Source: Ahaetulla prasina (Eukaryota; Chordata; Lepidosauria; Squamata; Colubridae). Taken from it: DNA of 64,000 nt. Both the position numbers and the translations under genes were made by a program. Location: contig NC_080540.1 in assembly GCF_028640845.1 (NCBI RefSeq), positions 161,719,438-161,783,437 on the forward strand, given 5' to 3'. Every line of letters starts with the position of its first letter. Positions within the stretch are counted from its first letter, which is position 1. Below, piece by piece: positions 2,306-63,060 of the stretch. The notes under the pieces are model-generated. The model was given only the letters and a program-made list of their open reading frames with translations. It was not told the DNA's origin and did not search any database.

Positions 2306-2310
2306 ATTCT
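2306..2310. repeat. Target-site duplication ATTCT, left (partner 9496-9500)
   Basis: It is identical to the five bases that follow the other LTR; 5 bp is the usual size for gypsy integrases. Confidence 0.85.
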
Positions 2311-2500
2311 TGTTAAGTTCGGGAAGTAACGAGGCTGGAGACCAGGGTAGTGACAACAGCTCTTTAATATAGGGTGAACCCAGCAACAGGCTGGGGGAAA
2401 AACCTCTCCTTTTATACAGTTCTGCTGGAGGCTTCGTCCAATCAGCAACGTGCTGATTTCCCGCTCAAATATTTAAAGGCACAACTGTTAATACATAACA
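2311..2500 (-). repeat. 3' LTR (element orientation) of the chimeric element
   Basis: 190 bp, identical by eye to 9306-9495. On the minus strand it starts TGTTATGTATTAACAG and ends CCGAACTTAACA, with the TG...CA ends of LTRs. It contains a TATTTAAA-like box and a GATTGG (CCAAT) word. Confidence 0.9.
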
Positions 2501-2515
2501 CTCCTCCCCTCCCAG
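2501..2515 (-). other. Polypurine tract next to the 3' LTR
   Basis: The minus strand reads TGGGAGGGGAGGAG immediately before the LTR. Such a tract primes second-strand DNA synthesis in LTR elements, and its position fixes the element orientation. Confidence 0.85.
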
Positions 2516-2551
2516 AAAACACTTGGTCTTATTTACATATTTATTTACATG

Positions 2552-3098
2552 TTATTTTTCGACGTAGTCACGCAAATAACCTGGGCGTCTCCTAGTTCTT
2601 TCTGACCTGCGCGGTTCAGTTCTGGGTGGTGTTTTGAGCTGGTCGGAGGGGCTGTTTTCTCCTCCCAGCTCTTTCTCTGGGCCATCGGGCTCTGGATTAT
2701 TGGCCGACTCTTTTCTTGGCCATCCGGCCTTGGATTAATTTTGGAATTTTCCTGCTGCTTCCTCGGGGACCTGATGGCGTCGCTGGAACTCTGGGACCTC
2801 AGCTAAGTCTTGCGCCTCCCGGGTCATTGTCAGCTGTGGATTCAAAGTGGTATTGGTCATTACCTGTCTCTGTTGGTTTGGTTTGGTCAGTTATTCGTTT
2901 CCTTAACTGGCTTGAGCCTGGACAATGCCTCCTTAGCGCTCCGGACGGAACGCTCTGCAAGGCCATTCGACGCAGGGTGGAAAGGTGCAGAGAGGGCATG
3001 TCGGATGCCTTCCTCTGCCAGGTACTCTTCAACTGGGCTGCCGTGAATTGGGGCCCATTGTCGGACACCAGAGTGTCCGGCAACCCGTGAGTTGCGAA
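2552..3098 (-). pseudogene. Gypsy pol C-terminal part: integrase core end and tail, frameshifted
   Basis: The minus strand shows LPDTLVSDNGPQFTAAQ, the second Asp block of the DDE integrase core. After a one-base shift it shows the following region with the SNGLAER Glu block. A premature stop falls near 2890. The pol end reads RRPGYLRDYVEK and a TAA at 2554-2552. The zinc-binding N-terminal part and the first Asp of the integrase are absent, because the chimera switches to DIRS sequence just right of 3098. Confidence 0.85.
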
Positions 3099-4412
3099 TA
3101 GGTGGCGATTCAGCCCTATTTATTCCTTCCAGCTGCTGGTATAGGGGTTGAGGCTCCCATTGTAGGTGAGTTTCCCTCCCCAGCGAGAAAGGCGATTCAG
3201 CCCGATCGCTGGGGACAGCATAAGAAGCTGCTGGAAGAACGGGAGGCTGTTAGGCCTCAATTACGCCTCCCGTGGCTGGCAACCGCGGCTGCCGATTTAA
3301 AACACAGCCGCGTGGCGGCTTTAATTAATATTAAGTTTGGGCGCCCCGGTGCTCCGATCGCCTCGGCCTACCCATAAAGGGTCTAGGCCGCCAGCCTGCC
3401 CTGCCTGAGCTCTGGGCGTCTTTAATCAGGCCATTGATGGGCCTATTTTCCAGTCACCGATCTTCGTGGGCGCCCCGGCTTCATTCGATCGCTTGGTGAC
3501 TCAGCAGGGCCTCTGCATCGATCTTGACTGGCTCTCCGGCCACTCACTGAGGCCTTCAGTCTGTGAGTATGATTACCCTTGTAGCCACCTCCGGTTTTAC
3601 TAGCCACGTGGCAAAATACCTAGTAGGCCCTAGAGAATGGAAAAATTTCCCCACTGAATTTTTATTTAAATGGTAATTTAATTATAATTTGTCCTAGGTC
3701 ATTTCTGTAATAGGCCTTGGCTTGGGCCTCTAATGGCTCATAGGCCTCGCATCCAGGCCTTGTCCACGTGGGGTTTGGGGGCTAACTATCGGTTAGGCCT
3801 TTCAAGATGGCCGTTCCTCCAGTCCGGCCTAGTAAAGGAAGCAACATCAGACCAGTCCAAGCCCAGGGCCTAGTGCTTGAGCTCTCATGCACCCACAAGG
3901 TCAGAGACACTTCAATCCTCCATTTCTAAGCCCCAAAAGGCTATTTCTAAGACTTCTGACAAGAAGGCCCTACAACGCCAGAAGGCTATGGATAGGGCCA
4001 TTGCTAGGGCAGTGAGGGAATCTGCTGATACTATACAGGAACAGCAATCCACCTCCTTACCAGTTCAGCCTCCTGTGCAGTCTCCTGGGGCTCCATTAAC
4101 TTTATCTCCTGATATATCTGTAGACTCATCCCAACCTCTGCCCAATTCTGATTTATTCTGTCCTATTTCTGTATCTGAAATGGAGGTTGTACCTGCAGCC
4201 CCGCCAGTACTTGAGTCAGCAGAGGTTCCTTCTAGTGCCACTATTCCAATGGGGCCTGTGAGTCACCAGGCAGTTGCCCCAGTGGCTAATGACCCTGCAG
4301 TTATGGCAGAAATGATTGCAGCTGCTGTTCAGAGGGGTATTACTGCTTCCAGGCAGACAAGAACCCATTCATGGGTTTCAGAATATGTAGCATCCCAAAC
4401 TAGTCACGATTT
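3099..4412 (+). pseudogene. DIRS-type segment I: 5' region and N-terminal part of the first ORF
   Basis: About 750 bases of GC-rich leader, with the word ggcgattcagccc present at 3106 and again at 3191, precede an open frame from 3877. This frame encodes a Ser/Pro/Gln-rich protein with a basic stretch (KKALQRQKAMDRAIARAVRE). The frame leads to VASQTSHDF, where the sequence crosses into gypsy DNA at 4402-4412. No clear ATG opens the frame: a TAG at 3871 is followed by TTGAGC, so the start is lost or lies elsewhere. Continuity with segments II and III, and the RT in segment III, identify it as the gag-like ORF of a DIRS element. The exact left border is uncertain. Confidence 0.7.
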
Positions 4413-4852
4413 CAAAATTCCGCCCAAAGACATACTCATGGAATTTTTGACCCCTGATACAATGGCTAATGCTTCTTTGTCTAATTGGCTGTAGTTCCTC
4501 TCTGGGAGGACATCGTTCTAGAGTAGAACGCTATAGGGGCTTCTGTGCCGTTTGGAAGTCTATGGCTGAGTACAGCCCCACCCCATAAGGGGACGCATCG
4601 CAAACCAGCACTAGGGGTAGTGAGTCGTGATATTGGATGAGCAGGCTATCACTTGAGAGCAGGTTCTTTACTGCTTCAAAAGCCCTATTTTCTGACTTTC
4701 CCCAAGACCAAACAGTATTTTTCCTAAGAGCCTATGCAGCGGTTCCAACGGTTGCTTTGTTCTTTAAAAGACCGCGTAAAATTAATCAATCCCAGGAATG
4801 CCTGCAGCTCTGCTTTGTTTTTGGGCGCTGGAGCCTTCCTAATTGCCTTAAC
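4402..4852 (-). pseudogene. Gypsy segment B1: end of RT and first half of RNase H
   Basis: The minus strand shows KAPAPKNKAELQAFLGLINF (RT thumb/connection) and LVLVCDASPYGVG (RNase H start with its Asp). The SSQ and NYSQLDKEALA blocks follow after small shifts, then a stretch ending GRNFEIVT-like at 4402-4412. Stops and single-base shifts are present. Confidence 0.85.
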
Positions 4853-5277
4853 TTAACAGGAATTATTACACGATCACCCCATAACAGGCACCCCTTGAGC
4901 CGAGAGCTCATCACGTTTCTTAACAAATTCTTTGAACCGTTAGCCCGGCGCAGCGGCCACCCTCTCTGTACCCAACCGAGTACAGTCCTTAACACAATGT
5001 CGGTATGATGCCGAGCCACTTCCTTTGATGTGACTGGGCCAGAGTCCAACGAGTCAATAAGGAGGATGGGTGTCCCGGAGTGGGGTCTTGATCGCCCTGG
5101 CAGTGGGCATCGGCTCAATCGTCTGCATGCCCCACTTCTTTTCCTGGTCGATGCTGCAGCTTGTATGAGTAAGCGGCTAAAATATAGTCCATCGAGTCAA
5201 GCGTGGCGAAAGTGCCACAGGCGTTGGCCGGTCGCCAGCCAGTAATCCCAGTAACGGTCTGTGGTCAGTCACGATTT
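4846..5277 (-). pseudogene. Gypsy segment B2: second half of RNase H and tether to integrase
   Basis: The minus strand begins IVTDHRPLLG (RNase H) at 5277 and continues through RLTRWTIFLAAY and HRPGKEVGHAD. The tether follows (GTPILLIDSLDSGPVTSKEV, GCLLWGDRVIIPVKLR). In an intact element this block follows B1. Here it precedes B1 on the minus strand, joined to it at 4846-4852 over the shared word ccttaac. Confidence 0.85.
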
Positions 5278-5808
5278 GGTGCAGGACTACTCCACACCTC
5301 AAGCTGAAGATTTCCAGGCTCATTCTCCATCTCGGGCCTCACTGGGGGATGAAGGGGACCTTAGGGATGAGAACCTCTCTGAGGATGAGGATTTGGTTCC
5401 AGACCAACCCTCCTTTGTGGGTCTCTTCAACCCACAATTATTTGATCTTTGCTACACAAGGCCAAGGTCACTACCCGGCTGGGAGTGGCCCGACCGGCAA
5501 TTCCCACCTCAGAGACCACTGATCCACCCATGGACTTGTTTTCAGTTCCGGTGGTCGAGTCAGAAGAGGTGCCTGCCCCCAAGCTCTTTGTGGAAGTAGT
5601 CGATAGGCAATGGAACACTCCTATAACTGGTCCTAATCCTAATGCCTTGGACCGTCGCTTGTATAATTTGGAACCTAACTTCCTTAAATTACTGCAAATC
5701 CCCACAGTTGATGCCCCAGTAGTTGCATTAGCAGGGCCATCTGTGGTCACAGGTCCTCCAGAGGAAACCCTTCGCCCGGAAGACAAGCGGGCCGAACAAA
5801 CCCTGATT
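5267..5808 (+). pseudogene. DIRS-type segment II: middle of the gag-like ORF
   Basis: The plus strand reads SHDLVQDYSTPQAEDFQ at the left border, then an acidic stretch (LSEDEDLVPDQPS), LLHKAKVTTRLG, and NALDRRLYNLEPNFLKLLQI. It ends at EDKRAEQTLI, where it crosses to gypsy. It continues segment I exactly if the gypsy block is removed at the shared word agtcacgattt. One frame change lies near 5445. Confidence 0.75.
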
Positions 5809-5997
5809 TATGAGCTTGTCCAGCTCCTTATCAATTTTGGTTTTAGGGCAAAGGACTCTCCTCGCCTTAAGCCTAATGGGGGCTACCTGGGGTCTAAGTT
5901 GAAGGAAATAGGGGTCCCCTTGTACTTGCCCAGGCAGTCCTTGAAGACATCTTGAACTCGTTAAAGAGAATGTCTTTCAAATTGCAGTCACTTCTGT
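5798..5997 (-). pseudogene. Gypsy segment C1: N-terminal edge of RT
   Basis: The minus strand carries the block between protease and RT fingers: DILFNEFK followed, after a shift, by RLKARRV and KIDKELDKLINQG. It starts at the shared word aaaccctgatt (5798-5808) and is contiguous with the protease copy to its right. Confidence 0.8.
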
Positions 5998-6257
5998 AGA
6001 TGCCAGTCACTCCCATGCCCAGGGCACGAAACCAGTCTAGTCCCAACAGACTGGGCAGAGTTCCTTCGGCGATCGTGATGGGCAGGGTCTTCTTGTGAGG
6101 GCCGACTCGACTCGGACGGAGGTGGTCCCTCGAACAGGGATGCGATTCCCTGGTAGTCGTGGACTCGTAGTCGCTTGTGCTTGCAGGTGGCGCTTGACGG
6201 ACGGCAGCGACTTCGCCAAAGTGTCCCAGGACATGATGGTGATCGCTGATCCCGTGT
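5998..6257 (-). pseudogene. Gypsy protease segment, copy 1 (260-bp repeat)
   Basis: The minus strand reads TGSAITIMSWDTLAKSLP, lacking the catalytic Asp codon because the junction cuts it off. It continues to LPSLLGLDWFRALG near the other end. It matches 8025-8284 base for base by eye. At 6257/6258 it is fused to RT-middle sequence (KAY before TGSA) over only about three shared bases. Confidence 0.85.
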
Positions 6258-6388
6258 ACGCTTTTCTGTAAGGCTTTGTTAAGCGTCGCCTTGTAGTCAG
6301 CGCAAATTCTAATTGACCCGTCCGATTTGATGGGGTGACGATTGGCGTCTCCCACTTTGCGTGATCGACTGGCACCAAAACCCTGATT
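6258..6388 (-). pseudogene. Gypsy segment C2: middle of RT
   Basis: The minus strand shows PVDHAKWETPIVTP and SDGSIRICADYKATLNKAL, the first conserved RT blocks, with one shift between them. In an intact element this follows C1. Here it precedes the protease copy on the minus strand. It returns to DIRS sequence at aaaccctgatt (6378-6388), the same word at which segment C was entered. Confidence 0.85.
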
Positions 6389-8035
6389 AGAGTCATCAGG
6401 CGGCTGCCTGGGCCGTTAGGGCCTCTTCCTCGGCCTCTTTCTTTAATAGGCTGCCCTTTTATGGTTAAAACAGTTGGACGTTTACCAGTCACTGACTCGG
6501 TCACATCAGGACTTAAACAAGATTATAGCTGCCATCGAATACTCAGCCGATGCCACCCTGAATGCTTCTCGATTTGCTGCCAAATCGATTGGTTCCCAGT
6601 ATCCTCACGCCGCCTTCTCTGGCTTAGGCGTTGGCAAGCCGACGCCAAAACAAATGGAGGTTGGCCTCAGCCCCTTATTCGGGACCTCACTCTTTGGAGC
6701 AGCCTTGGATCCTTTACTTATAGAGACCAAGGACAAGCGCAAAATCCTTCCAAGCATGTCCCGTTCAGACTCCAGACCAACCCCATATTTTCGTCCCTTC
6801 AGAGCGGCTGATTCTAACTTTGGAAACTCCAGAACCCAAAGACCCTTCTCCCCAGACAGGGTAGACAGGATAGGCAGGATAGACAGGCAGGTCAAGGTCA
6901 GAGGGTTCCTTCAAGCGGCCCTTTCGGGAGGTCGCCCATTCAGGCTCACGTTGACTGCTTGCCCGTCCCTCCCATTGGGGCAGACTGGCGCCTTCGCCAG
7001 CCAATGGGAGGAGTCCACCTCGGACTCCTGGGTCAGGAGACAATCAGGTTCGGTCTATCCTGGAATTCCTCTCCACCCCCGGGCCATTTCGTCAGGTGCC
7101 CGTTATCTTGCAACCCGGCCGAACGGCTGCTCGTGGCATCGGCCATAAAACATCTTCTCTCAATTCAGGCCATCCAAGCGGTGCCACGAGATCAGCACGG
7201 TCAGGGTTTTACTCCCGACTGTTCATAGTTCCAAAGCCCTCAGGGGATGGAGAGCAATCCTCGACCTGAAGGCTCTGAACCGCCACATAGTCTACAGGCG
7301 GTTCAAGATGCAGTCACTCCAGTCCATCTTGGAGAGCATCAGGAGGGACTTCCTCACGTCAGTAGACCTGACGGAGGCATACTTACACGTCCTATCCTTC
7401 CGGCTCACAGGATTCCTCCGCTTCTGCCACGGGGTCTCCATTACCAATATTGTGCCCTTCCATTCGGGCTCTCCTCGGCCCCAGGGTCTTCTCAAAGCTA
7501 ATGGCCGCCTCTCAGCATCTCCGGCTATTCCAATCAGAATCCAGGCTTATCTGGACGATCTCCTTATTCAATCTCGATCAGAGACCTGGCGGCAGCGGTT
7601 GTCCACAACCATTCAGGTTCTAGAAGCCCACGGCTACTCGATCAACAAGGCCAAAAGTCACTTACATCCTACGAATCGAATCCAACACTTAGGGGCCATC
7701 ATAGACACGATGAGGGCCGGGTCTATCTGTCACAGGAGCGTCTCACCAATTTACAGAATCTAGTCAGGGGGTAACCAAGAGACGCCTTATTCCTTTAAAG
7801 ACCCTTTCCCAACTCTTGGGAAACTGGTCTCCTGCATCGGCATTGTACCTTGGGTCGTCTCCACTGCAGGACACTGCAGTGGATTTCTACTCCCTATCAA
7901 AAGGCACACAGCTCGTCACCAATACTTGTCCAACTTCACAACAAGTCAGACACTCTCTTTTGGTGGATCTCCCAGCCCTGTCAAAGGCAGAGAGTTCAGG
8001 AACCCCACGCCTAATCTTGACAACAGATGCCAGTC
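6378..8035 (+). pseudogene. DIRS-type segment III: end of gag-like ORF, RT and start of RNase H
   Basis: The plus strand continues the gag-like ORF (HQAAAWAVRASSSASFFNR, then after a shift DLNKIIAAIEYSADATLNAS) and a basic linker. The reverse transcriptase follows, with FLTSVDLTEAYLHV (motif A region), FLRFCHG, CALPFGLSSAP and the catalytic YLDDLLIQS at about 7548. RNase H begins with LILTTDAS at the right border. DIRS-type RTs use this YLDD and ALPFGLSSAP pattern. The rest of RNase H, the methylase-like domain, the tyrosine recombinase and the 3' repeats are absent. Several frameshifts are present. Confidence 0.82.
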
Positions 8036-8284
8036 ACTCCCATGCCCAGGGCACGAAACCAGTCTAGTCCCAACAGACTGGGCAGAGTTCCTTCGGCGAT
8101 CGTGATGGGCAGGGTCTTCTTGTGAGGGCCGACTCGACTCGGACGGAGGTGGTCCCTCGAACAGGGATGCGATTCCCTGGTAGTCGTGGACTCGTAGTCG
8201 CTTGTGCTTGCAGGTGGCGCTTGACGGACGGCAGCGACTTCGCCAAAGTGTCCCAGGACATGATGGTGATCGCTGATCCCGTGT
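8025..8284 (-). pseudogene. Gypsy protease segment, copy 2, with catalytic DTGSA
   Basis: The minus strand reads VDTGSAITIMSW, the retropepsin active-site block, here complete because the sequence continues into gag at 8285. It joins DIRS segment III at its left end over the word agatgccagt. Confidence 0.88.
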
Positions 8285-9208
8285 CTACTTCAAGCCTGCA
8301 CCGTACTCCCTCGATCTTGGGCTTTGTGAAAATCTTCTTTCCACTTTGGTTGAGGCGCGCCTATAATGACAGTCGTTTGGTTAGACTTCGCCTTTCTTTT
8401 TGAACCAATCGCGGGCCGCCTTTCCGGTTCCGCTTTGATTGGCCGATTTGAATTTTCGGCGGAAGGTTGGGCCGCCTGCAAACCTGAGCTAAGTGTCCTT
8501 TCTTCCCACACCGCCGCATGTTGCGTCTTTAAACCTGCAGCGTTGGCGCTGATGCTGCCCTCCGCAGCTTCCGCACTCGCCACGGTCCTCAGTGTCGCTT
8601 TCTCGGTCCGGCAGACCCTTCTCATCCACGCCTCACCTTCGGATTCGGACTGAATCTCCTCCTGGTGTACTGGCGCTGGCTTTGCGCCGCCTTGGATTGA
8701 AGAGGCTTTGCAGAGTCTCTGCTGCTTTAGTAGACATTTCGTGTGCTCTGGCCTCGCCCAGAGCGGTGGCTAGTGTCAGGTTGCTCCTGGCTAGCAGTCG
8801 CCGCCGAGGCGGATGTCCTTGACCTCGGATGAGTTGCTCGAGTAGCACTTCGCCTAAGTCTCGGTATCCGCAGTCCTTGACGCCTTCTTAAAGCGCCATG
8901 TAGTCACCGGCGGACTCGCCTCCATCTGTCTACGTTCTCAATTCAAACCGCTGCACGATTTGGACGGCGCCGGTGCGAAATGGTTCTTCAGCAAAGTCTG
9001 CAGAGTCGGCCACGATACCGATTGTATCGGCGTTGGCTCTGCCAGGGCTTCCGCAATCTCGATTACCTCCGCCCGCAATGGCTTAGGAAGTAAGCCCGCT
9101 GGTTATCAGGGATCCTGTAGTTCGTTGGCTTTAGAAAGCTCAAACGGGTCATATATGTTCCCATTTCTCCTTGCCCGGGTTGTACGGTGCGGGTGGCGTG
9201 TTTGCCAT
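8285..9208 (-). pseudogene. Gypsy gag, frameshifted, with two zinc knuckles
   Basis: The ATG at 9208 on the minus strand opens MANTPPAPYNPGKEKWEH, an ordinary gypsy gag start, and a stop follows soon after a shift. The nucleocapsid end at 8575-8478 shows CGSCGGQHQRQRC and, after a one-base shift, CGKKGHLAQVC: two CCHC-type knuckles. The protein would coat the RNA and form particles, but this copy is broken. Confidence 0.82.
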
Positions 9209-9287
9209 TTCCGCGTTTCTGCCCTGAGTTTGCTGGGTTCGGGACTAGCGTGCTTCAGCTCGGTTCTGGTTCTCCTTAGCCTCGAGA

Positions 9288-9305
9288 TCCCACCTTCGTC
9301 GCCAA
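9288..9305 (-). other. Primer-binding-site region after the 5' LTR
   Basis: The minus strand reads TTGGCGACGAAGGTGGG directly after the LTR, where a tRNA 3' end should pair. The tRNA was not assigned. Confidence 0.55.
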
Positions 9306-9495
9306 TGTTAAGTTCGGGAAGTAACGAGGCTGGAGACCAGGGTAGTGACAACAGCTCTTTAATATAGGGTGAACCCAGCAACAGGCTGGGGGAAAAACCT
9401 CTCCTTTTATACAGTTCTGCTGGAGGCTTCGTCCAATCAGCAACGTGCTGATTTCCCGCTCAAATATTTAAAGGCACAACTGTTAATACATAACA
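9306..9495 (-). repeat. 5' LTR (element orientation) of the chimeric element
   Basis: 190 bp, no difference from 2311-2500 seen on reading line by line. It is followed by the ATTCT duplication at 9496-9500. Confidence 0.9.
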
Positions 9496-9654
9496 ATTCT
9501 TATTAACAAAAAGTGCAAACAAAAGAAGCCTCCACTATGCAAATTTTATAAATGATCACTTCTTCGTCCCACCCAGCTTTTTAATAGTGAAACTTTTACT
9601 GAAACGATTACAGTATAATAAAATTGCTATTATTTCTTCAGAGAAATTCCTATT

Positions 9655-10389: not shown

Positions 10390-11325
10390 AGAATAGAATA
10401 TTTTAGAATATTTTAATTTGTATACCGCCCTTCTCCTGAAGGACTCAGGGCAGTGAACAGGCAGATAAAATACAAACATACACAATAGTAAAAACAACCC
10501 TTAAAAAACTGATTCAAATTTGCCCAAATATTAAAATAACATACACCCCCATAAAATTACAAAAGTTTAAGTTTTAAAAACCCATCAAAAGTCAATTAAA
10601 ATTTAAAGATAAAAAATCAAGCTAGTCCAGCCATATGAAATAAATAGGTTTTAAGTTCGCGGCGAAAGGTCCTAAGGTCTGGTAGTTGTCGAAGTCCAAG
10701 GGGAAGTTCGTTCCACAGGGTCGGAGCCCCCACAGAGAAGGCCCTCCCCCTGGGGGCCGCCAGTCAACACTGTTTGGCTGACAGCACCCTGAGGAGTCCC
10801 TCTCTGTGGGAGCGCACCGGGCGATGGGAGATCGAGGCCGGCAGTAGACGGTCCCATAAATAACCCGGTCCTAAGCCATGGAGCGCTTTAAAGGTGGTAA
10901 CCAATACCTTGAAGCACACCCGGAAAACAACAACTAGCCAGTGCAGTCTGCGCAGGATAGGTGTTACGTGGGAGCTCCGAACCGCTCCCTCAATAACCCG
11001 CGCAGCCGCATTCTGGACTAGCTGTGAAGTCTCCGGGTGCTCTTCAAGGGGAGCCCCATGTAGAGAGCATTGCAGTAGTCCAGGCGAGAGGTAACGAGAG
11101 CATGAGTGACCGTGCATAAGGCATCCCGGTCCAGGAAGGGCCGCAACTGGCGGATCAGGCGAACCTGATAAAAAGTTCTCCTGGAGACGGTCGCCAAATG
11201 ATCTTCAAAGGACAACCGATCATCCAGGAGCACGCCCAAGTTGCGTACCTTCTCCATCGGGGCCAATGACTCACCCCCAACAGACAGCCGCATTTGCAGC
11301 TGACTGTACCGAGATGCTGGCACAC
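10390..11325 (-). repeat. L2-type LINE, 3' part with RT C-terminus
   Basis: Minus-strand frames show RLDYCNALYMGLPLKS, QNAAARVIEGA, LRRLHWLVV and VFRVCFKVLVTTFKALHG, the C-terminal blocks of L2/CR1-type reverse transcriptases. A 3' end on the plus strand reads ataccgcccttctcctgaaggactcagggc. It is 5'-truncated and frameshifted. Confidence 0.8.
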
Positions 11326-11666
11326 AGAGCCCTCTCTGCGGGCATGCAAACCATCGCCCCAGCTCGGCTCCCACTGGCCAGCTGGTTTTTGGGTCTCTGC
11401 CACACATGCGTGGGGGGCGGGGCGCATGTGGGAGATGTGCGTGCATGTGCAGGGGTCACACGCATGGGGTCAAAAATGGATGTGCGGGGATGGGGCGCAT
11501 GCAGGGGTCATGGCACATATTGGGGGTGTGCACACATGTGCGGGGGTGGGGTGTACATGGTGGTCATGTGTGCATGTGCGGGGGCGCATGTGCACATTGC
11601 ATTATGTATGTGTGTGTGCACGTGCACGCTTTTGGCACTCTGTGCTGAAAAGGTTAGCCATCACTG
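11326..11666 (+). repeat. GC-rich hAT-like MITE copy with CATG/TGTGCG minisatellite-like core
   Basis: It has a degenerate core of gcatgtgcgggggtgggg-like units. The right end ctgaaaaggttagccatcactg has the form of a terminal inverted repeat ending CACTG. The left end appears cut where it meets the L2 fragment. Confidence 0.45.
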
Positions 11667-18661: not shown

Positions 18662-19433
18662 CAGGGTTCACCAACTTTTCGGACCTCAGGGACCACTAAA
18701 TATATAATTTAAAATCCTGTGGACCACTAATATGATCTGCCTAATGACCGGCTGGGTGGGCGTGACTAGGTGGTCATGTGACTGGGTGCCATGGCCAATT
18801 CAATGTCACTTGCGTCGAGGGGCACCTCACCAGCCTCTACTTGCCCCTCCCCTCCCAGCCACTCCTCGCCTCCCTGCCCAGGCTCCTTAGGGCCCCAACA
18901 GGAAGCAGTTGCTGGAGCTAAGCAGCCACCAAGAGGAAGAGTTGCCAAAACAGCTGGCTCAGTTCAAATTGGATCTGGCCAAGAAGGAGGCTCAGCAGAA
19001 CCACGTCACTGAGGACTATGAGCATAGGCTTTCCAAGCAGAGGGAAGACCTGCAGGAGTTCAAGGCCAGGTACTGGTGCCTGGAGGCTGGTCAGCCAGTT
19101 CCAGGCCATGATGCAGTTCCACTGGAACACAGCCCTCCAGCTCCTTGCCACCAGCGGCACTTCCCTCCAGCCTTCACCCAAAGCCCTGCACCAGGAGGTC
19201 GAAGCAGACCCCAAGTCGGAATTTCTGCCCCCCTCCAACCCACACAAGAAGACCCCGAAGGGGGAGACTCTCTGCAGCAACACAAACATTCATTGCACAT
19301 TTCCGGCCCAGGGGCTGTAGTTTGAGGACCCTGATTTAGTGCAAAATAAAAAATGTAAATAATTTTTCTGCAGACCACCAAAATTTTCTCACGGACCACC
19401 AGTGGTCCACGAACCACTAGTTGGTGACCACTG
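18662..19433 (+). mobile_element. hAT-like non-autonomous element carrying captured coiled-coil coding sequence, copy 1
   Basis: Terminal repeats cagggttcaccaact and agttggtgaccactg are flanked by a perfect 8-bp duplication atatagac (18654-18661 and 19434-19441). The outer parts are element sequence (gaccactaaatatata ... ggaccaccagtggtcc). The inside, about 18895-19300, reads as a Lys/Glu/Gln-rich coiled coil (LLELSSHQEEELPKQLAQFK, NHVTEDYEHRLSKQREDLQE), then VSQFQAMMQ and a Pro/Ser-rich tail. The frame is shifted by a deletion near 19090. No transposase is present, so it would depend on one in trans. Confidence 0.82.
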
Positions 19434-19466
19434 ATATAGACAAGATGGGTGGCACACAATTCTAAC

Positions 19467-19547
<81 letters not shown>
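19467..19547. repeat. (GATA)n microsatellite
   Basis: About 20 nearly perfect units. Confidence 0.95.
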
Positions 19548-19548
<1 letters not shown>

Positions 19549-19679
19549 ATAAGGAATAAAGTTATATACAAAATAAATGGTAGAATAATAAAAAAATGAA
19601 ACTCTAAAATATGTAGATGATTCAAACACTCTTATAAATGCTTCTATCCTGAACAGTTTATAAATTGTTAATAAATTGG

Positions 19680-38257: not shown

Positions 38258-38468
38258 AAATTGCTTCATGTAACTTCAGTCAGCAAAAGAACTTGTCGCG
38301 ATATTAATACACTTAGAGCATATGCACCAAGACAAATTCCTTGTGTGTCCAATCACACTTGGCCAATAAAAAATTCTATTCTATTCTATTCTATTCTATT
38401 CTATTCTATTCTATTCTATTCTATTCTATTCTATTCTATTCTATTCTATTCTATTCTATTCTATTCTA
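38258..38468 (+). repeat. Snake LINE 3' tail followed by (TTCTA)n
   Basis: gagcatatgcaccaagacaa and ccaatcacacttggccaata run directly into about 19 units of TTCTA (38373-38468). This is the plus-orientation form of the tail seen at 13.4 kb. Confidence 0.82.
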
Positions 38469-38996
38469 TATAAATATTACACTTCTCAATTTTGACCATT
38501 TTTATTCTTTATTAACAATTTGCTTTCCCATGTGGAGGATCAGTTTAACATAATCACCAACAGAGGAAGTTACAAGGCAAAAAGTAATGTTAATTCAATG
38601 GCTATAAGTCAGTATGTAAATCCATAATTTTTTCAAATGTTAGTTGACAATGAAAGGTGACAATGCAGCTATAGGGAAACCACAATTCTTCATTTTCTTA
38701 ATAGCTATTCAGACTAGATTAGAAAATCTTCCTACAGTGCTGTTTTCACTATGATTCTGTGTGAAGCATCTGGAGCTCTTAAAATAAGCCGCACACATAT
38801 ATCATGTATTATTCTAAACAAAACAAGCTGCAATTACTGCCACCTGAAATGAAAGCACTTTCAAACAAGGTAGTGGGGCAATGTGCATATTTTGGATTTT
38901 TTTCCCCACAAAGTATCTTTTGTATCATTGTGGATACTGTAAGTTGTTGTTAAACCAGTTATGCATATTAAAAATGTATTTGCAAAGATTGTAGAG

Positions 38997-42056: not shown

Positions 42057-42184
42057 GTAAGTCAGGGAAGGTTGGTTTAGTCGTTTTTCCATCCAGAACA
42101 TGGTGTTTGGTCCACTTACGGCCTTGGACCATTCTTCTGTGTGTTCCGTCATTTTCATTCTCAGCCATTTCACCCACATGTATG

Positions 42185-42765
42185 AATAGAATAGAGAAGA
42201 GAAAATAGAATCGGAATAGAAAAGAAAATAGAATAGGAATAGAAAAGAAAATAGAATAGGAATAGAAAAGAAAATAGAATAGAATAGGAATAGAAAAGAA
42301 AATAGAATAGGAATAGAAAAGAAAATAGAATAGGAATAGAAAAAGAATAGAATAGAATAGAATAGAATAGAATTCTTTTATTGGCCAAGTGTGATTGGAC
42401 ACACAAGGAATTTCTTCGGTGCATATGCTCTCAGTGTACATAAAGAAAAAATAAAATATATTCATCAAGAATCATACATGTGTATGTGTGTGAATAGAAT
42501 AGAGAATAGAGAATAGAATAGGAATAGAATAGAAAATAGAATAGGAATAGAAAAGAAAATAGAAAAGGAATAGAAAAGAAAAGAAAATAGAATAGGAATA
42601 GAATAAGAATAGAATAGAATAGAAAAAGAATAGAATAGAATATAGGAATAGAATAGAATTCTTTTATTGGCCAAGTGTGATTGGACACACAAGGAATTTC
42701 TTCGGTGCATATGCTCTCAGTGTACATAAAGAAAAAATAAAATATATTCATCAAGAATCATACAT
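42185..42765 (-). repeat. Two tandem units of pentanucleotide array plus snake LINE tail
   Basis: Unit one (about 42185-42476) and unit two (about 42490-42765) each consist of an irregular GAATA/GAAAA array. The minus-strand LINE tail follows (tattggccaagtgtgattgg, tcagtgtacataaagaaaaa). The two tails are nearly identical, suggesting duplication of one insertion. Confidence 0.8.
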
Positions 42766-42797
42766 GTATGTGTGCATGATATACTGTGCAATATGTG

Positions 42798-51874: not shown

Positions 51875-58850
<6,976 letters not shown>

Positions 58851-59237: not shown

Positions 59238-60089
59238 CAGGGGTCACCAACCTTACAGATCTCAGGGACCACTAAATTTATAATTTTAAATCCCGTGGAC
59301 CACTAATATGATCTGCCTAATGACCGGCTGGGTGGGCATGGCAAGGTGGTCATGTGACTGGGTAGGCATGGCCAACTCAATGTCACTCACGTTGAGGGGC
59401 ACCTTGCCAGCCTCTACTCGCTACTCCTTGCCTTCCCGCCCACCTGGACTCTTTAGGGCCCCAATGGGAAGCAGTTGCTGGAGCTAAGTAGCCACCATGA
59501 GAAAGAGTTGGCAAAACAGCTGGCTCAATTCAAATTGGATTGAGCGAGAAGGAGGCTCAGCAAGCATAGGCTTTCCAAATAGAGGGAAGATCTGCAGGAG
59601 TGCAAGGACAGGTACCGGCGCCTGGCGGCTCAGTGGGCTGAGATGGTCAGCCAGTTCCACCCCATGATGCTGTCCCATTGGAACAAGGTCCTCCGACTCT
59701 TTGCCACCAGTGATGTTTCCCTCCAGCCTTCGTCCAAAGCCCCACACCAGGAGGCTGAAGCAGACCCCAAGTCGGAATTTCTGCCCCCCTCTGACCCACA
59801 CAAAAAGATCCCAAAGAGGGGGACTCTCTGCAGCAACACAAATGTTCATTGCATGTATCGTTTTTAATTTTTATAACTGTTGTTTTATCTGGCTGTAAAC
59901 TGCCCTGAGTCCTTTGGGAGAAGGGCGGTATAGAAATTGGAATAAATAAATAAATAAATCTGTCCCAGGGGCCGTAGTTTGAGGACCCCTGATTTAGGGC
60001 AATGTAAAAAAATGCAAATAATTTTTCTGGGGACCACCAAAATTTTCTCAGGGACCACCAGTGGTCCACGGACATGGTGGTGACCGCTG
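59238..60089 (+). mobile_element. hAT-like non-autonomous element carrying captured coiled-coil coding sequence, copy 2
   Basis: Ends caggggtcaccaacc and ggtggtgaccgctg; flanks aactagac on both sides (59230-59237 and 60090-60097). It has the same captured region as 18662-19433: KQLAQFK-like coiled coil, YRRLAAQWAEMVSQF, and the SEFLPPSDPHKK tail. Deletions differ: this copy lost about 40 bases near 59553 but kept the AEMVSQF part missing in copy 1. An extra ~100 bp at 59858-59958 is a later LINE-type tail insertion. Confidence 0.82.
59858..59958 (+). repeat. LINE tail inserted inside the hAT-like element
   Basis: ctgtaaactgccctgagtcc, gagaagggcggtatagaaat and (AATA)n; absent from the other element copy. 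Confidence 0.72.
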
Positions 60090-60097
60090 AACTAGAC

Positions 60098-60275
60098 TGT
60101 GTTGTTTCTCTTTGTCATATAATATATGAGGGTATATGCATAATTTTGTATTTATTTGTTCTGTCATGGTTATGAAGTATATCTTGGAGGTGGTCACCCT
60201 TTGAGAGTTGTATGCAATGAAATTTCATTTTAATGTATGCCAATTAGTGTGCATTCAAAGTGACAATAAATATTC
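60098..60275 (+). repeat. Snake LINE 3' tail with short TTCTA run
   Basis: gtgttgtttctctttgtcat, ggtggtcaccctttgagag, aagtgacaataaatattcta. The hAT-like element inserted into this LINE just upstream. Confidence 0.72.
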
Positions 60276-62869: not shown

Positions 62870-63060
62870 CAGGGGTGTCCAAACTTGGTCCCTTTAAGAC
62901 TTTTGGACTCCAACTCCCAGAGTCCCTCAGCCAGCAAAGCTGGCTGAGGAACTCTGGGAGTTGAAGTCCAAAAGTCTTAAAGGGACCAAGGGGTGCTGGC
63001 TGAGGAACTCTGGGAGTTGAAGTCCAAAAGTCTTAAAGGGACCAAGTTTGGACACCCCTG
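62870..63060. mobile_element. Palindromic hAT-like miniature element with duplicated right arm, perfect 8-bp TSD
   Basis: Ends caggggtgtccaaacttgg and accaagtttggacacccctg; flanks atctaaac on both sides (62862-62869 and 63061-63068). The arm gctggctgaggaactctggg ... aagggaccaag is present twice (about 62938-62990 and 62995-63046). Confidence 0.87.

Follow-up and report, generated by a model that had tools for sequence, protein, structure and literature searches.

The DNA analysed here is a window of 64,000 nucleotides (nt) from Ahaetulla prasina (RefSeq assembly GCF_028640845.1, contig NC_080540.1, forward-strand positions 161,719,438 to 161,783,437), and coordinates below are positions within it. 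At 2306-9500 it carries a single insertion of 7.2 kb in which pieces of a Ty3/gypsy long terminal repeat (LTR) retrotransposon alternate with pieces of a DIRS retroelement (Table 1). An earlier note on this DNA had described such a mosaic as one unit between identical LTRs, with at least six alternations and each element on a strand of its own, and the structure was confirmed. The LTRs agree at 190 of 190 nt and a perfect 5-base-pair (bp) target duplication, ATTCT, lies at both flanks, as in a Ty3/gypsy LTR retrotransposon insertion; matching LTRs of one insertion event are likewise a mark of template-switch LTR mosaics. In plus-strand order the pieces are gypsy (2501-3107), DIRS (D1), gypsy (4402-5277, block 2), DIRS (D2), gypsy (5798-6388, block 1), DIRS (D3) and gypsy (8025-9305), giving six changes of element; adjoining gypsy and DIRS pieces overlap by words common to both, and three further joins connect gypsy to gypsy. 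By protein matches as well as by DNA alignment to copies at 29 + 29 places in the same genome, the minus strand carries every gypsy piece and the plus strand every DIRS piece. In minus-strand reading, TTGGCGACGAAGG comes after the 5' LTR and GGGAGGGGAGGAG before the 3' LTR; by position only, they are taken as a putative primer-binding site (PBS) and polypurine tract (PPT). The gypsy order gag, protease, reverse transcriptase (RT), RNase H, integrase is not kept, as blocks are permuted, stretches are lost and 260 nt are doubled. There is no N anywhere in the window.

Table 1. Components of the gypsy-DIRS insertion, in window coordinates
Feature	Position	Strand	Remark
Target duplication ATTCT, left copy	2306..2310	.	
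LTR, 3' LTR in gypsy reading direction	2311..2500	-	identical to 9306-9495
Purine tract beside 3' LTR	2501..2513	-	putative PPT by position
Gypsy pol end and integrase part	2514..3107	-	inner gypsy/gypsy join 2905-2909 (CTG), 308-322 nt of parent gone
DIRS piece D1, 5' region and gag start	3104..4412	+	joined to gypsy on GGCG (4 nt, 3104-3107)
x2 word AGTCACGATTT, left copy	4402..4412	.	DIRS/gypsy join, 11 nt; right copy 5267-5277 (gypsy/DIRS join)
Gypsy block 2 part a, RT connection to RNase H	4402..4854	-	
Gypsy block 2 part b, RNase H to integrase start	4846..5277	-	permuted; gypsy/gypsy join to part a on CCTTAACTT (4846-4854)
DIRS piece D2, gag	5267..5808	+	
x1 word AAACCCTGATT, left copy	5798..5808	.	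DIRS/gypsy join, 11 nt; right copy 6378-6388 (gypsy/DIRS join)
Gypsy block 1 part a, protease to RT start	5798..6257	-	includes 5998-6257 = 8025-8284
Gypsy block 1 part b, RT	6258..6388	-	permuted; gypsy/gypsy join to part a at 6257/6258, ~2 nt common
DIRS piece D3, RT to RNase H start	6378..8035	+	
Word AGATGCCAGTC, common to DIRS and gypsy at their join	8025..8035	.	DIRS/gypsy join, 11 nt
Gypsy protease, gag and leader	8025..9305	-	second 260-nt copy 8025-8284; TTGGCGACGAAGG beside 5' LTR, putative PBS by position
LTR, 5' LTR in gypsy reading direction	9306..9495	-	identical to 2311-2500
Target duplication ATTCT, right copy	9496..9500	.	

Both elements can be recognized at the protein level. 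The gypsy protease, RT and pol end match Ahaetulla prasina proteins, one RNase H piece scores above the cut-off of PF17919, and matches of gypsy pieces to PF17917 and rve_3 stay below their cut-offs. The DIRS pieces carry gag and RT of DIRS type: the RT lies just below the cut-off of PF00078 and matches a Thamnophis protein, and the gag matches metagenome-derived proteins. No tyrosine recombinase was matched in the window open reading frames (ORFs) scanned, a PDB search remained without matches, and an NCBIfam search returned weak transposase matches to the integrase part only. Searches of further collections gave no useful relatives (one 44% match, L001, was not used).

The parents were sought in the host genome (1.77 Gb), where the best 40 candidates per query were scored and a second close copy would be expected to rank among them. 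Four queries (2501-3300, 4200-5500, 5600-6600 and 7000-8300) together span all nine joins. Both parents turned out to be large families, and every join could be mapped. With query 5600-6600, the 40 scored of 2533 candidates were this locus and 39 others, each with the gypsy part only. A genome query with the LTR had no matches, which is not evidence since very common words were skipped there. The gypsy comparison set comprised 29 places (L003-L031), eight of which were re-extracted at greater length (L032-L039). These eight show an ordinary element of 4.53-4.59 kb, with two complete LTRs in seven cases (four pairs identical, the other three differing by 2 mismatches, by 3 mismatches, and by 3 mismatches plus 3 gaps) and a perfect 5-bp duplication in six of the seven ordinary copies checked. 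Against these copies, both inner gypsy blocks of the mosaic are circularly permuted. The two parts of block 1 adjoin in reverse order in 29/29 places, with an overlap of 8 or 11 nt, and those of block 2 do so in 28/29 with an overlap of 11 nt, L030 having lost part of the region. Three stretches of these copies are also missing from the mosaic: 308-322 nt at 2905-2909, ~328 nt from 3107 to the point where block 2 begins, and ~426 nt between one block and the next. With query 2501-3300, 38 of the 39 other scored candidates match on both sides of the 2905-2909 gap separately; none of the 39 bridges it, and one has one side only.

The perfect 260-nt repeat within the mosaic (5998-6257 = 8025-8284) bears on the number of gypsy sources. 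Over these 260 bp, 0/406 pairs among the 29 gypsy copies are identical and none of the 29 equals the mosaic, and since the two mosaic copies are identical to each other, they derive from one source locus or molecule. Doubled segments also occur in other gypsy copies: L014 (1-806) has repeated LTR-leader pieces, and a copy at G000:C6:102967130-102969488 has RNase H pieces twice. Rearranged copies are therefore not unique within the gypsy family.

The DIRS parent refines the layout proposed by the earlier note to one DIRS stretch throughout, with two permuted gypsy blocks that leave and rejoin it. Query 7000-8300 (40 of 2492 candidates scored) found this locus and 39 others, all of them DIRS and all ending at 8035, the RNase H start where DIRS homology stops, gypsy homology having begun at 8025. 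The DIRS comparison set consisted of 29 places (L041-L069) plus L070, which adjoins L041. D1, D2 and D3 form one unbroken stretch in 28/29 of them, neighbours overlapping by 11 nt, and L049 is without the upstream part. DNA identity to 28 DIRS places is 96-100% over the compared pieces. DIRS has thus lost nothing at either gypsy block, yet it is cut at both ends, starting at 3104 in a comparison with one DIRS copy, and its own termini are missing from the mosaic. Two smaller observations concern the DIRS family. In the copy L047 (9-338), a stretch resembling 6761-6915 is joined to one resembling 4220-4412 with 16 nt in common, a rearrangement at a shared word. The 13-mer GGCGATTCAGCCC occurs twice in the mosaic (3104-3116 and 3191-3203, 87 nt apart); both copies are an original part of the DIRS 5' region, and in L070 their distance is 92 nt.

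Five of the six gypsy/DIRS joins fall on 11-nt words and the sixth on 4 nt, a use of shared words as in template-switch LTR mosaics, and for each inner gypsy block the word at which DIRS is left is also the word at which it is resumed. Among randomly drawn gypsy/DIRS joins, microhomology of at least 11 nt appeared in 11 of 2,000,000 draws. As 11 nt is also the length of the longest word common to one gypsy and one DIRS copy, the joins appear to use the longest words on offer, though not all of them. For block 2, the x2 word is the sole word of at least 11 nt that it has in common with 3.7 kb of one DIRS copy.

The combination itself was encountered only here. None of the four join-spanning queries had a second full-length match among the best 40 candidates, the other 39 in each search consisting of one element only. 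Likewise, there were no DIRS pieces in 37 gypsy loci (29 places) and no gypsy pieces in 30 DIRS loci. A single full-length match per query is what would be expected of a hybrid made in the very cycle that inserted it.

The best fit to these observations, to which we give a probability of roughly 60%, is template switching in reverse transcription followed by gypsy-type integration. Gypsy RNA would have been reverse-transcribed in a particle that also contained DIRS nucleic acid, and the growing strand would have switched template mostly at the longest words common to both templates (11 nt). Followed along the plus strand, the direction of first-strand synthesis on gypsy RNA, the mosaic progresses in steady order along both elements, from the 3' end in gypsy and from the 5' end in DIRS, except for two backward slips on gypsy of ~870 and ~580 nt, each inside an excursion from DIRS. 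Copying would accordingly have moved in that order through both elements, with two excursions from DIRS to gypsy; one backward slip in each would have produced a permuted block before the return to DIRS at the word of departure. The finished 7.2-kb DNA would have kept the gypsy LTRs and been integrated in the gypsy manner with a 5-bp duplication. We infer that the enzyme was a reverse transcriptase and that all joins arose in one event, with DIRS present as antisense RNA or complementary DNA (cDNA) or, if the second strand was being made, as sense RNA. First-strand switching would need DIRS antisense RNA or cDNA, whereas second-strand switching would use DIRS sense RNA. For Dictyostelium DIRS-1, sense and antisense transcripts as well as circular cDNA are described in PMC5633606. 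Switching at the reverse-transcription stage is favoured because the parents are contiguous in the same genome where the mosaic is broken, and because of the 11-nt joins, the LTRs, the duplication, the 260-bp identity and the single match.

Several observations weigh against this mechanism. None of the evidence is specific to reverse transcriptase. The x1 word is present at its full 11 nt in 1/29 gypsy copies (L011), 27 having 8 nt of it (CCCTGATT) and L022 less. Common sequence is short at two joins, 4 nt at 3104 and ~2 nt at 6257. Block 1 contains further 11-nt words common to DIRS, among them the word of the 8025 join, which also occurs at 5998 without a switch to DIRS. In the one-copy comparison, 11-nt words were as common in the opposite orientation (five) as in the joined one (four). 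Given these opposite-orientation words and the lack of a switch at 5998, a rule of switching at shared words is not strict. Finally, no insertions but 15 deletion events, totalling 23 nt, were counted in D3 together with 16 rare substitutions; the medians in its 28 relatives are 3 rare substitutions and 1 deletion event (maxima 22 and 6), and the other seven pieces examined are within the range of their own relatives. These comparisons used 27-29 relatives per piece, biased by their selection for likeness to 7000-8300 (DIRS) or 5600-6600 (gypsy); in a first realignment 23, 28, 28 and 29 relatives passed the filters. The load of D3 may point to a second, older DIRS copy or to an error-prone passage. 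An earlier count of mosaic-only changes from BLAST gaps had given single-base losses at 8 positions within 8025-9305 and at one position in each of four further pieces; it varied with how the gaps were placed, and realignment did not uphold it in that form.

The earlier note had also proposed template switching with DIRS as the second template. This holds as the best mechanism, but neither LTR identity nor the target duplication discriminates between reverse transcription and switching at the level of DNA. The strongest rival, which we consider unlikely, is a DNA-level origin: gypsy circles of 865 and 580 bp could have joined DIRS DNA at 11-bp words, or template switches could have occurred during replication-based repair, either in a copy that was genomic or extrachromosomal and later moved via its LTRs, or on the spot once an ordinary gypsy copy had inserted. 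One crossover with a circle would leave a permuted segment bounded on either side by the same word, as each block is, and switching of the replication type also uses short words (1-36 bp, median 2 bp, as given in PMC8277862). Yet 11 bp is little for a crossover, and the scheme would require two circles as well as two outer joins; the LTRs are identical, and no second copy that might be the source appeared among the 40 candidates scored for each of the four join-spanning queries.

Circles may also be combined with reverse transcription. In this doubtful version, the permuted blocks would represent one round of copying on gypsy templates in the form of small circles, either RNA or cDNA, of ~865 and ~580 nt, entered from DIRS and left for DIRS at one 11-nt word, and a circular template would account for the return to DIRS at the same word without any choice. 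A bolder, conceivable variant would have the DIRS recombinase itself join gypsy circles at the 11-bp words. Back-splice signals at the 6257 join were considered as well; AG precedes it in the reading direction of many gypsy copies, the donor side is unclear, and the idea was dropped.

The remaining explanations fare worse than template switching during reverse transcription. An assembly or read artefact is improbable: the many small deletions in D3 could suggest one, but the LTRs and target duplication match, no N is present, and seven of the eight pieces examined resemble ordinary copies. Overlaps of 11 nt are, moreover, far too short for assembly joins. More improbable still is that the mosaic is one member of an established hybrid family moving in trans, which the LTRs and the PBS-like and PPT-like tracts would allow, since, among the best 40 candidates of each join-spanning query, only this locus matches at full length. 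Simple nesting by ordinary insertion of gypsy fragments into DIRS, or of DIRS into gypsy, is rejected, as the earlier note had argued: DIRS is continuous apart from the two gypsy blocks, and the 11-nt direct repeats beside them resemble target duplications, but DIRS copies of the ordinary kind contain these 11-nt words as well, and for x2 and 8025 so do ordinary gypsy copies, which makes them shared words; the blocks are permuted, DIRS is without both ends, and no inner element with its own ends and an insertion-made duplication is seen.

Elsewhere in the window, minus-strand ORFs at 10764-11455 are reminiscent of the end of a CR1/L2-like long interspersed nuclear element reverse transcriptase. 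Two distant minus-strand ORFs (19091-19561 and 59647-60114) have very similar ends and represent a dispersed repeat. Pentanucleotide arrays and a perfect 56-bp tandem duplication are found at 38373-38469, 42184-42774, 53194-53724 and 62939-63046, the arrays including a perfect ATTCT array of 19.4 units and a doubled 286-bp unit.

In the mosaic, which is young and fully mapped, one DNA unites two retroelement classes whose integration machineries differ. Shared words, steady progress and permuted blocks together yield a testable rule, by which switches fall on the longest word that the templates share. If the switching did take place in reverse transcription, DIRS and gypsy nucleic acids would meet in one copying complex, a route by which hybrid retroelements might arise. 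If circles were involved, gypsy particles would contain circular templates alongside DIRS nucleic acid, and retroelements of the integrase and tyrosine-recombinase types could exchange sequence within one cycle.

The earlier note knew of no such chimera, and no gypsy-DIRS hybrid, nor this permutation, was found in the literature searched, most subscription papers and Repbase being outside that search. Its impression of novelty is narrowed by template-switched composite LTR insertions and RNA capture at short words, which are already in print (PMC1950507, PMC5408686); template-switch mosaics are known, and what appears to be new here is the pairing of gypsy with DIRS and the permuted blocks. 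In addition, the 260-nt repeat, the circular permutation, the DIRS contiguity across the blocks, the shared words and the three gypsy/gypsy joins go beyond that note. Pseudogenes derived from circular RNA (Dong et al. 2016, via PMC5408686) resemble the mosaic in that a circular template was inferred from sequence, with LTR sequence in the flanks of mouse cases, but differ in that splice signals are not established for the mosaic blocks. Recombination within LTR families, as reported for Onsen (PMC5668417) and Athila (PMC2410132), similarly combines several copies into new insertions or lineages, though with joins between related elements, whereas here unrelated ones are joined. In LTR-mediated mRNA retroposition (Tan et al. 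2016, via PMC5408686), an LTR element captures foreign RNA by switching at short shared words, and several switches are possible in theory according to that account; in our case the captured sequence comes from a different retroelement class, lies antisense to the LTR element and was entered three times. The composite LTR insertions of Sabot & Schulman (2007, PMC1950507), as described there, are likewise one insertion from two templates with matching outer LTRs and a 5-bp duplication, but they fuse two related elements with a shared LTR, whereas the A. prasina mosaic intersperses two classes that face in opposite directions and includes permuted blocks.

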